DNA of 50,205 nt, taken from Desulfarculus sp. Lineage in GTDB: Bacteria > Desulfobacterota > Desulfarculia > Desulfarculales > Desulfarculaceae. The stretch is from positions 1 through 50,205 of the forward strand of contig JACRDC010000066.1 in NCBI GenBank assembly GCA_016218705.1. The letters are read 5' to 3'. The notes under the pieces were generated by a model that did no database searches, was not told where the DNA came from, and was given only the letters and a program-made list of their open reading frames with translations. Position numbers and translations under genes: made by a program. Each line of letters begins with the position of its first letter. Positions within the stretch are counted from its first letter, which is position 1. Positions 5,778 through 50,205 of this stretch are shown here, piece by piece.

Positions 5778-6158
5778 GCTATCTTCCCTTGCTGCCAAAT
5801 CCTAAGATTTTTTAGCATATCACCTCGCCAGGGCGGCGGCAAGACAACCCGGTGGCCGCGAGCCGCGGCGGGCATATACGAGTCGGTTGGCGCTGCACCA
5901 TTGACGTAGGCCAGCGGCTCCCGCCGAAGGCCCGCGCCGGGAAATCTCCGGGCGGGGATAAACCCCGCCCCTTGTATGTTAAACAGGGTTAGTACGGGAG
6001 CCGGTGAAGCCCGTCAGGGGAGAGCGCCGCCCGATCCGTTAATGCCCGTCCGGGCACCGGGCCGGCCCGTATAAGCCCAGCCGGGGGCCCCGGCCCTCGG
6101 CCTTGCCTATGGGGGCCGGCTGGGGTAGAAAGGGACGAACCCCAAGGGGAGTCAGGAC
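5778..6158. other. Divergent intergenic region with a dispersed GC-palindrome element
   Basis: 381 bp between the divergent haem operon and the sigma-54 activator. At 5950-5970 is the palindrome GGGCGGGG-ATAAA-CCCCGCCC. It is followed by about 65 bp (to ~6035) that align with the element at 13511-13600, sharing CTTGTATGTT, TACGGGAG and GGGAGAGCG. No convincing gene or RNA is visible. AAGGGGAG at 6144-6151 is the ribosome site of the next gene. Confidence 0.6.
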
Positions 6159-8445: not shown

Positions 8446-8496
8446 CGTTGATACAAATTAACCAATGAGTTTTCTTGATGATGCAACGGCGGAGTT

Positions 8497-8800
8497 ATAC
8501 GCATTTCAGATCAGACGCATGGTTTTCTCGACAGGTTTCCTCTGGGTACAGCCCTTACGGTATAGGCGGCCCAAGAAAGCCTAAGCGGTTTCTTTTTGTG
8601 TCCCGCTAGAGCCGCCCGGCCATACTGGCTTTGCTAATGCGGGTGCCGGCGCGGGGTGGATTCTCCGCCCTGGCGTGGGGCAGGGGCCGCAGTGACCCGG
8701 TATCCCCCCCGGGTTGGATCATAGCAGCCCCCTGCCGGTGCCCTAAGAATGGCCGGGCTAAGAGCGGGACACGGGGCTTGGGCGGCCAAAAACCAAAGCT
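8497..8800. repeat. ~300-bp dispersed repeat, copy 1
   Basis: About 304 bp nearly identical, by reading, to 49897-50205. Shared blocks include ATACGCATTTCAGA, CGACAGGTTTCCTCTGGG, AGGCGGCCCAAGAAAGCCTA and GGATCATAGCAGCCCCCTGC. Internally it has inverted segments: GTGTCCCGCTAGAGCCGCCC (8598-8617) pairs imperfectly with GGCCGGGCTAAGAGCGGGAC (8751-8770), and GGCGGCCCAAG pairs with CTTGGGCGGCC. This suggests a long hairpin, either a miniature mobile element or a structured RNA. It carries no convincing gene and fills the gap after proC. Confidence 0.85.
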
Positions 8801-8855
8801 CGCCGGCCAGAGGATGCCCGGATCAAGGGGCAGCAACCTAATACTGTATGATTGT

Positions 8856-8904
8856 CATTCCCTATGGGTCTGATACCCCGTAGCTTGCTGCGGGGTAGTT
8901 CATT
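8856..8904. repeat. REP-like hairpin element
   Basis: CCCTATGGGTCTGATACCCCG is followed by a small hairpin (CCCCGTAGC / GCTGCGGGG) and TAGTTCATT. The same CCCTATGGG-CTGATACCCCG-CTTGCT-CGG pattern recurs at 49837-49871, in both cases close to the 300-bp repeat. Similar hairpins occur in many bacterial genomes (from memory). Its mobiliser is not in the window. Confidence 0.6.
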
Positions 8905-8913
8905 AAAATGGTA

Positions 8914-8974
8914 TTAATCCCCGCCCGCCGGTTGTCCACGCCAAAAGCTAGGGCGGGGTTTACCCCCGCCCGCT
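8914..8974. repeat. Paired GGGCGGGG/CCCCGCCC palindromes
   Basis: An outer CCCCGCCCGCC (from 8919) and a compact hairpin GGGCGGGG-TTTAC-CCCCGCCC at 8951-8971 lie 45 bp downstream of the selenoprotein gene on its strand. This is the same palindrome class as at 5950, 13513, 27367 and 27428. It may serve as terminator for the minus-strand gene. Confidence 0.5.
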
Positions 8975-9016: not shown

Positions 9017-9343
9017 CTAGCAGCTACAGGAGGTGCTGCCGCAACTGCCCCCGCCGCTGCCCAAGGGGTTGGCGGTGGAGAGAACAAAACCCTGCTGCCA
9101 GCCGTTGTCCACGAAATCCACCTTCACGTCGCCGCTCTGGCCGCTCAGTTCCTTGTCAATCAGATAGGTGAGGCCATCCACCTCGTACTTGTCGTCGTTG
9201 TCCTTTGGTTCATCCAGAACCAATCGCAGCGACGGGCCGCTTCAGCCGCCGGCTTGCAGATAGACCCGCAGGGCGGAGTCCAACTGCTTCTCCTGCATGA
9301 AGGCCTTGATGGCCTTGCTGGCGCTCTCGGTTACCTCGATCAT
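9017..9343 (-). CDS. HesB/IscA-like selenoprotein (in-frame UGA = selenocysteine)
   Basis: The frame from ATG 9343 (AGGAAGGAA upstream) gives 108 aa with one internal TGA at 9244-9242, codon 34. The sequence around it, YLQAGG-U-SGPSLRLVLDEP, is the A-type Fe-S carrier motif in which the UGA replaces the first conserved cluster-ligand cysteine. The other two ligands remain at the C-terminus (GGSCGSTSCSC; C101, C106, C108). A 7-bp stem with a UGGAU loop follows the UGA at bacterial SECIS distance. HesB-like selenoproteins are a known prokaryotic selenoprotein family. Automatic annotation would give either a truncated 68-aa protein from 9223 or a pseudogene. Likely role: Fe-S cluster assembly or delivery, or a redox function. 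Confidence 0.9.
9205..9244 (-). promoter_or_regulatory. Bacterial SECIS element of the HesB-like gene
   Basis: After the UGA (9244-9242) come 18 nt, then the perfect stem TTGGTTC / GAACCAA (9223-9217 and 9211-9205) around the pentaloop TGGAT. The loop begins 25 nt after the UGA and has G at its second position. Both features fit the bacterial SECIS consensus recognised by SelB. Confidence 0.85.
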
Positions 9344-13480: not shown

Positions 13481-13510
13481 GAAGAGGCCAAAAGACAAAA
13501 GCAAAAATAC

Positions 13511-13600
13511 ACGGGCGGGGATAAACCCCGCCCCTTGTATGTTCAACATGGCCACTACGGGAGCAAACGGGGTTGGTTACGGGAGAGCGTCTCCCGACCC
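13511..13600. repeat. Dispersed GC-palindrome element
   Basis: The palindrome GGGCGGGG-ATAAA-CCCCGCCC at 13513-13533 is followed by CTTGTATGTT, TACGGGAG and GGGAGAGCG. It aligns with 5950-6035. Inverted GGGAGAGCGTCTCCC and GTCGAGGCACTCGAC hairpins follow to ~13625. It is confined to the gap between nadK and the convergent methyltransferase gene. Confidence 0.7.
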
Positions 13601-34613: not shown

Positions 34614-34988
34614 GGGCAATATCCGCCTTTCGCCTAGCATGTTGCCGAAAAACAACCCGCGGGCGGGCCATGGATGGCGAGTTGAAAAAGTCCAGGGATG
34701 GACTTTTTCAGCATCCTGCCAGAAGTTGGCGCCGCCATCCGCCGCGCCGGCGCTCGCGTTGGCAACAATCATACCGCCAGGCCGGGGCTGTGAAAATAAA
34801 TAATGCTGCCCAGGCCGGCCGGCAAGCGGCGGGCGCCCCCTGGCCGGCGGTTATTACAATATTGAAACCAGAGGTGGGTGATGTGCTAGGATTATCCGGC
34901 TGGCGTCCCCAGGGCGCCGCTAAGCCGCCGCTCCAGGGTGGGGCCGGGACGGGCGGCGGAGGCAGAACGGATCAAGGAAGGAAGCCGC
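34614..34988. other. Divergent intergenic region with a conserved hairpin
   Basis: 375 bp between divergent genes. GTTGAAAAAGTCCA and TGGACTTTTTCAGC (34681-34712) form a hairpin almost identical to 44695-44726. A weak promoter-like pair, TTGAAA (34862-34867) and an extended -10 TGCTAGGAT (34884-34892), precedes the ATP-grasp gene with a long 19-nt spacer. No gene is seen. AAGGAAGG before 34989 is a ribosome site. Confidence 0.55.
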
Positions 34989-44686: not shown

Positions 44687-44843
44687 AACAGGTTGTTGAA
44701 AAAGTCCATCCATGGACTTTTTCAACACGAGTTAGCCGAAATGAATTCGGCTAACTCTCCCAAAAAGCTTGGCGCTGAAGCGCCCGCGCTTTTTGGCGGG
44801 CCGTCCATGGCCCGCCAACAGGCTGTTTTCCAACAGCCTGTTA
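44687..44843. repeat. Block of five consecutive hairpins with inverted ends
   Basis: Five palindromes stand end to end: GTTGAAAAAGTCCA / TGGACTTTTTCAAC (44695-44726), GAGTTAGCCGAA / TTCGGCTAACTC (44730-44758), an AAAAAGC..GCGCTTTTT stem (about 44762-44795), GGCGGGCC / GGCCCGCC (44796-44817) and AACAGGCTGTT / AACAGCCTGTT (44818-44842). TAACAGGTTGTTG at the left end is the near-exact inverse of CAACAGCCTGTTA at the right end. The block fills the space between the redox operon's last gene and tRNA-Val. Confidence 0.8.
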
Positions 44844-49719: not shown

Positions 49720-49896
49720 CATAGGTAGTTAATGTGATGTTTCTAGGTCATGATACAAGCGAACGTACAAAATAAATTTCAAATATGCCCCATCTTTGAT
49801 GATTTTGGCACTGGTCTCCGCCAATGCCTTTTTATCCCTATGGGCCTGATACCCCGAAACTTGCTTCGGCTTTAAATCTCTTTTCTTTACCGCTTG
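49720..49896. other. AT-richer gap with a REP-like element
   Basis: An unusually AT-rich stretch (ATTTCTAGCATAGG, AAATAAATTTCAAAT) for this genome. At 49837-49871 lies CCCTATGGGCCTGATACCCCG followed by a small CCGAA / TTCGG hairpin, the same element type as 8856-8904. No gene is seen. Confidence 0.55.
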
Positions 49897-50205
49897 ATAC
49901 GCATTTCAGACCAGACGGATGGTTTTCTCGACAGGTTTCCTCTGGGTACAGCCCTTACGATATAGGCGGCCCAAGAAAGCCTAAGCGGTTTGGTTTCTTT
50001 TTGTGTCCCGCTAGAGCCGCCCGGCCATACTGGCTTTGCCGGTGCGGGTGCCGGCGCGGGAAAGACTCTCCGCCCTGGCGTGGGCAGGGGCCGCAGGTAT
50101 CCCGTATTCCTTGCCGGGTTGGATCATAGCAGCCCCCTGCCGGTGCCCTAAGAATGGCCGGGCTAAGAGCGGGACACGGGGCTTGGGCGGCCAGAAAACC
50201 AAAGC
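49897..50205. repeat. ~300-bp dispersed repeat, copy 2 (reaches window end)
   Basis: Matches 8497-8800 in the same orientation with few substitutions and short indels (for example an extra GGTTT near 50000). It keeps the same order of blocks, including the inverted GTGTCCCGCT...AGCGGGACAC arms. It may continue beyond the window. Confidence 0.85.

Follow-up and report, generated by a model that had tools for sequence, protein, structure and literature searches.

The stretch of DNA analysed here, which we call the window, is 50,205 nucleotides long and constitutes the entire contig C29 of the Desulfarculus sp. assembly G000 (4.21 Mb, 126 contigs). As a preliminary description of the sequence had reported, the window carries two copies of a repeat in the same orientation ~41 kb apart; the measured spacing is ~41.4 kb, and the copies match over blocks of 211 bp (88% identity) and 100 bp (95% identity). 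The inverted arms described within the repeat, GTGTCCCGCT and AGCGGGACAC, are confirmed, as is the lack of a transposase: the longest open reading frame that begins within copy 1 spans 80 aa, and neither a transposase nor other coding capacity is found inside that copy. A consensus scan of copy 1 likewise detects no promoter-like or terminator-like site. The repeat itself is real, but its limits required correction, since copy 1 extends from 8498 to 8913 rather than from 8497 to 8800, with TTA direct repeats on either side, and copy 2 starts at 49898 (Table 1).

The CTGATACCCCG hairpin, described earlier as accompanying both copies, is instead a separate insertion within copy 1; at copy 2 it is present in degenerate form, ~25–64 bp outside the repeat. 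Given that its pattern has only three matches in the genome at up to two mismatches, this hairpin does not accompany the repeat family, and we take it as an unrelated later insertion. Upon removal of the 45-bp insertion, the 3′ end of copy 1 agrees with the family consensus TGTCATTAAAATGGTAT.

Table 1. Features of the two repeat copies in the window.
Feature	Position	Strand	Basis
Left target-site duplication, TTA	8495–8497		Identical TTA at 8914–8916; single TTA at the G003 empty site
Copy 1, mobile (type A) element, TACGCATTT...ATGGTA, broken by a 45-bp insertion	8498–8913	+	Family ends; identity to other copies
Structured core of copy 1	8568–8795	+	Covariance model R1 match, 189.9 bits
P2 outer stem, 5′ arm, GTGTCCCGCT	8598–8607	+	Sequence; compensatory changes
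P3 inner stem, 5′ arm, GCCCGGCCAT, almost invariant	8614–8623	+	Sequence; model alignment
P3 inner stem, 3′ arm, ATGGCCGGGC	8749–8758	+	Sequence; model alignment
P2 outer stem, 3′ arm, AGCGGGACAC	8763–8772	+	Sequence; compensatory changes
Foreign hairpin insertion, CCCTATGGGTCTGATACCCCG...GGGGTAGTTCATT, within the 3′ end of copy 1 and bordered by CATT on each side	8860–8904		End minus insertion equals consensus TGTCATTAAAATGGTAT
Right target-site duplication, TTA	8914–8916		Copy 1 sequence; family end analysis; G003 empty site
TGA where the left TNA of copy 2 is expected; right side beyond the contig	49895–49897		Sequence
Copy 2, cut by the contig end	49898–50205	+	Core model match 49973–50200, 186.7 bits

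Elsewhere in the window, a 60-bp repeat at 5942–6001 and 13505–13564 (87% identity) contains a CGGGCGGGGATAAACCCCGCCC hairpin and a GGGAGC end, and palindromes of the form TTGAAAAAGTCC...GGACTTTTTCA occupy 34681–34713 and 44695–44727, with 10 kb between them. Positions 9017–9343 of the minus strand hold a 108-aa open reading frame with one in-frame TGA, placing Sec at residue 34 (QAGGUSGPS), which resembles a gene for a HesB/IscA-like selenoprotein. Ordinary gene calling would truncate this Sec-containing frame.

Copy number and genomic placement

A BLAST search of the genome with the repeat returns 40 scored matches at 89–100% identity (159 first-look candidates), and a covariance model of the structured core yields at least 88 matches at E ≤ 0.001 (150 of 8708 candidates scored); the sister genomes G003 and G001 are positive as well. 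Rather than only two copies devoid of structure and missing from relatives, we find dozens of copies, far beyond the window pair, together with a conserved structure and two positive sister genomes. For the analysis of ends, 78 of the 88 model matches were kept and ten weak, partial or antisense matches were dropped. Copies with mobile ends, referred to here as type A, account for 56 of these 78. Of the 252 contig ends in the assembly, 43 have a piece of the element no more than 450 bp away. The assembly therefore often breaks at this repeat, the window pair being two of many, and the element explains part of the fragmentation of this assembly.

No copy lies inside a gene called by the custom codon-usage caller employed here; this caller assigns a coding fraction of only 0.73 to the window, so genes are missing from the context counts. 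Among 52 gaps that contain a copy and have both neighbours called, 29 are convergent, 22 co-directional and one divergent, compared with 7, 36 and 16, respectively, among 59 gaps lacking a copy (Fisher p = 8e-7 for convergent and 1e-4 for divergent gaps), the control gaps coming only from the window and the sequence retrieved around the copies. Such placement fits selection against damage and, equally, an element useful at gene 3′ ends; the preference could be mere tolerance.

Ends and target site of the mobile form

Across the 78 copies, a 5′ end is readable in 48, a 3′ end in 42, both ends in 34 and neither in 22. The 34 two-ended copies follow the pattern T-N-ATACG...GTAT-N-A, with T at −2 in 33 and A at +2 in 32 of them. 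The base N is identical at both ends in 25 and differs in the other 9; shuffling gives a mean of 9.05 identical pairs, and none of 50,000 shuffles reaches 25. In the simplest reading, type A would be a TACG...GTA element flanked by TNA direct repeats. A search for target-site duplications yields TNA, in agreement with the empty sites.

In G003, three such sites without an insertion point to a 3-bp TNA duplication. Beside C20, the sister genome has TTAA once, with a substitution in one of the two G000 repeats; at the site of the window copy, G003 reads GGATTAATTCC with a single TTA; and at C4 it has a single TGA. The C104 site is also empty but ends in TAG, so that no TNA comparison is possible there, and the C58, C2 and C72 sites are not decisive. 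At the C126 site, the TGA used by type A carries another element in G003, with ends TACCAATATGC. In 10 of the 56 type A copies, the TNA is the exact stop codon of the called neighbour (distance −1).

Type A measures ~370 bp without later insertions, and its terminal inverted repeats (TIRs) are short and imperfect, ATACGCATTTCA and ATACCATTTTAA agreeing at 8 of 12 aligned positions with ATAC and CATTT in common. The TNA duplication, the empty sites, the many copies and the absence of coding capacity together make it a well-supported reading of the sequences that type A is a non-autonomous, MITE-like transposon with a TNA target, recently active in this lineage. On the same grounds, the early guess that the repeat is a MITE holds well for the form found in the window. 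An autonomous partner was sought as an inverted pair of ends ~1–2 kb apart; none is found among 58 matches to the 3′-end pattern and 63 to the 5′-end pattern, in an assembly whose collapse could hide one. Nor is a mobile element without the core found, the sole candidate, at C24, being an internal deletion and hence not an ‘empty’ transposon.

Several individual copies have features of their own. The C24 copy (L287, C24:14422–14607 of G000) is a 186-bp type A copy whose internal deletion is joined at a CCGGCCA microhomology, and the type A copies L011, L015 and L052 show the 5′ end twice over (ATACGCATTTNATACGCATTTCAG), which looks as though it had been added a second time. At the contig start C7:1–140 of G000 (L298), a putative transposase piece, presumably the C-terminus of an IS630-type enzyme, lies directly against the 3′ half of a type A copy. 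A further palindromic element that targets TNA, with ends TACCAATATGCAATCAAAGCC and TACCAAGTTGCGATC, occurs at L305 (G000 C106), L304 (C115), L294 (C98) and L317 (G003 C46). It has inserted repeatedly at the TAA of CCTAAGCGG within type A copies, and in G003 it occupies the same stop codon TGA as type A does in G000.

The hairpin core and its copies without mobile ends

Folding and sequence comparison define the core as a long hairpin, in which an outer stem P2 encloses the near-invariant inner stem P3 (GCCCGGCCAT/ATGGCCGGGC) and the apical part varies. The P2 arms in the window are replaced elsewhere by GTGCCCCGCC/GGCGGGGCAC and others. In a MAFFT alignment of 20 sequences (A1), both sides of P2 change in 5 of 11 pairs, amounting to 26 cells against a shuffled mean of 8.6; because the pattern used to pick these sequences holds the inner stem constant, A1 is uninformative on P3. 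A second alignment (A2) comprises 108 model-aligned matches chosen without the inner-stem pattern and, being fitted to the model, leans to the structure; here both-side changes in P2 affect 7 of 11 pairs, covering 70 cells where shuffling gives a mean of 17, with P3 pairing intact in 98.6% or more of cells. In slid controls, pairing falls from 95% to 26–42%.

The strand of a possible RNA receives conflicting evidence. Read on the plus strand, departures from pairing in P2 and P3 comprise 41 A.C cells and only 15 G.U cells, contrary to the prediction for selection on a plus-strand RNA, and the minus strand fits better; type A, however, folds better on the plus strand than on the minus strand. 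MFE values are modestly below those of shuffles, with z = −1.82 on the plus and −2.89 on the minus strand. Rfam identifies only a tRNA in the window at the gathering threshold, and at E ≤ 5 it gives no match on the core at five loci.

The core model matches 3 of 63 genomes of the class, namely G000, G003 and G001, and has no match in the same-genus genome G002 (97% complete). In a phylum sample it matches 2 of 395 genomes, one of which, G185, gives 22 bits over 63 bp; we take this match as chance rather than as a real core. The exact core pattern, searched across 84,980 species with one genome apiece, occurs in 16 stretches, a count that misses diverged copies and from which near-own records may be absent; all 16 come from two metagenome-assembled genomes (MAGs) belonging to the Desulfarculus-like group of relatives, Desulfarculus sp. 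NC_groundwater_1546 and Deltaproteobacteria bacterium WY2.bin153. Viral contigs contain 0 stretches with the pattern. Among the titles and abstracts of the matches listed in open-licence literature on Desulfarculus repeats, bacterial MITE/REP elements and IS1031 TNA targets, the element is undescribed.

BLAST matches in the sister genomes mostly cover the interior of the repeat only, and no clear end is seen in 21 of 25 aligned G003 copies or in 6 of 6 aligned G001 copies. Two weak end calls in G003, at L089 and L138, have four mismatches and are not counted as ends. Core copies without mobile ends, referred to as type B, make up at most 22 of the 78 copies in G000, at least one of these 22 (C102:48771) being a type A copy truncated where its contig stops. 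Type B has conserved surroundings of its own, with AAAANCCAAGCGGTTCTTTTTT (AAAANCCAAGCGG) on the 5′ side and GGGGTCTGG...TGGCCCCAG on the 3′ side, and type B copies often stand in opposite-oriented pairs. A further module, AACGGGAGCC...GACCCGT...GCCCAGC, lies downstream of many type B cores in a mosaic-like arrangement (L005, L083, L104, L112).

Type B flanks at C20, C59, C117 (a pair), C94, C71, C11 and C106 match the flanks of G003 or G001 copies, several of them at 75–97% identity. Six orthologous pairs, those that align well, were compared; C11, C106, C34 and C57 were left out, their pairing being doubtful owing to several copies or poor alignment. Within the six pairs, the arms are identical at 528 of 572 positions (272/293 and 256/279 by arm) and the apical part at 474 of 620 (Fisher p = 3e-14), with outer flanks at 50/66 and 58/84. 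Type A copies in general are without orthologous counterparts. Among the few exceptions, C20:8635 adjoins a type B locus, the C33 flank resembles a G001 contig with a copy ~2 kb away, and C58, C13:143176 and C102:28821 have an intergenic space in common with an end-less G001 copy or fragment. The G001 pieces in these three spaces have no type A ends, and the one by the C13 tRNA lies in the opposite orientation. Diverged type A copies are present in G003 (L092, L095).

Orthology and the conservation of the arms support the view that the core is a separate hairpin module kept at fixed sites. The main alternative is that the arms may stay alike without any function, through gene conversion between copies or through quasi-palindrome repair. 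The structured RNA family suggested in the preliminary description is partly supported: the conserved hairpin shows compensatory changes, occurs independently of the mobile ends and persists at orthologous positions.

Interpretation and comparison with known systems

The reading we consider probable combines a non-autonomous transposon, type A, with a hairpin core that appears to be conserved separately. Type A inserts at TNA, duplicates 3 bp and has multiplied in G000; it would be moved by a TNA-target transposase presumably supplied in trans. In the simplest history, transposon ends would have captured a type B-like hairpin in an ancestor shared by G000 and G003. The hairpin may act in transcripts at gene 3′ ends, where it would block 3′ decay or read-through between converging genes, and copies would then persist at stop codons and in the gaps between convergent neighbours. 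This specific RNA 3′-end role, modelled on what passages of PMC3733652 say about MITEs and REPs, for which such action has been proposed, we put forward tentatively. It is possible, if doubtful, that the transposon has acquired a conserved functional RNA 3′-end hairpin as its cargo, which it would deliver to stop codons and to the ends of convergent genes.

The hairpin could instead be simply the interior of an ordinary MITE, with type B representing old, end-less copies and the arms kept alike by gene conversion or quasi-palindrome repair. Types A and B have the whole core in common, diverged type A copies exist in G003, internally deleted copies such as that at C24 exist, and A.C departures exceed G.U on the plus strand, all of which suit such an account. 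It is nevertheless rather unlikely, as clear ends are missing from all aligned G001 copies and most aligned G003 copies, type B possesses its own conserved surroundings, and the orthologous arms are far better kept than the apical part. A DNA-level function, for example as a cruciform or as a binding site for a nucleoid protein or gyrase, would accord with the near-invariant sequence of P3 and with the lack of the G.U excess that selection on a plus-strand RNA predicts, and some REPs have been proposed as nucleoid-protein or gyrase sites. Preference for gene 3′ ends over promoters is, however, equally typical of RNA elements, and we regard a role as DNA rather than RNA as distinctly unlikely.

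Were each copy a separate gene of a trans-acting structured RNA family, the long covarying hairpin, its near-invariant inner stem and the many fixed copies would be explained. Against this stand the sheer number of copies, a placement that follows gene 3′ ends, the absence of a promoter-like site from copy 1 and the lack of an Rfam match on the core, which render the proposal very improbable. The earlier suggestion that the window pair serves as a recombination substrate, deleting or amplifying the 41 kb between, draws on two similar copies in direct orientation. With dozens of copies on both strands of the genome and copy 2 merely at a contig break, nothing is particular to this pair, and we give the suggestion almost no credence.

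Bacterial MITEs are usually viewed as deletion derivatives of insertion sequences, their hairpins mattering only by accident. The hairpin described here can be traced apart from mobile ends, as fixed and mobile copies in the same genus, and thus permits a direct question: has a useful structure, whether RNA or DNA, been disseminated by a transposon? If the cargo reading is true, each insertion would hand a gene a ready-made 3′ untranslated structure, and a single genome would contain this mobile 3′-end module in two states, one still mobile and one domesticated (fixed, constrained, end-less).

As to target choice, passages of PMC12016507 describe the IS1031 subgroup of the IS5 family as inserting at TNA, with TGA among its targets and a 3-bp direct repeat exclusively, a rule that type A shares. 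The type A ends, TACGC/TACCA, differ from GAACC (GAACCTGTCTAGTATCT) of ISLrh, the single IS1031 example taken from that source; given these differing ends and no transposase found, type A is assigned to no family. RU elements, according to PMC2759123, duplicate TA, whereas type A duplicates TNA. In the relevant passages of PMC3733652, bacterial MITEs span 70–300 bp with TIRs of 15–30 bp. At ~370 bp type A lies outside this descriptive size range, which makes it a MITE-like variant and not a typical MITE, and its TIRs (8 of 12 aligned positions) are shorter and less perfect.

REP/BIME sequences, as characterised in the same passages of PMC3733652, are 20–40 bp long with GTAG/CGTC tags, lie between convergent or unidirectional genes, may supply stop codons and often form opposite-oriented pairs. 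The elements described here resemble them in position, stop codon supply and opposite-oriented pairing. Unlike them, the core is ~210–230 bp long, and its consensus is without a GTAG or CGTC tag. The 92 stem-loop sequence families that Cozzuto et al. report from 40 genomes (PMC2267715) are, like the core, repeated and intergenic with a common stem-loop, a likeness by description. Also close in outline are bacterial MITEs with stable hairpins, namely NEMIS/Correia, ERIC (RU-1), YPAL (RU-2), RUP and Nezha, which passages of PMC3733652 describe as transcribed and as affecting the genes beside them through their folding. Like type A, they are short, non-coding, dispersed and intergenic, with target duplications; unlike theirs, the hairpin module of type A also stands without mobile ends at conserved orthologous sites.
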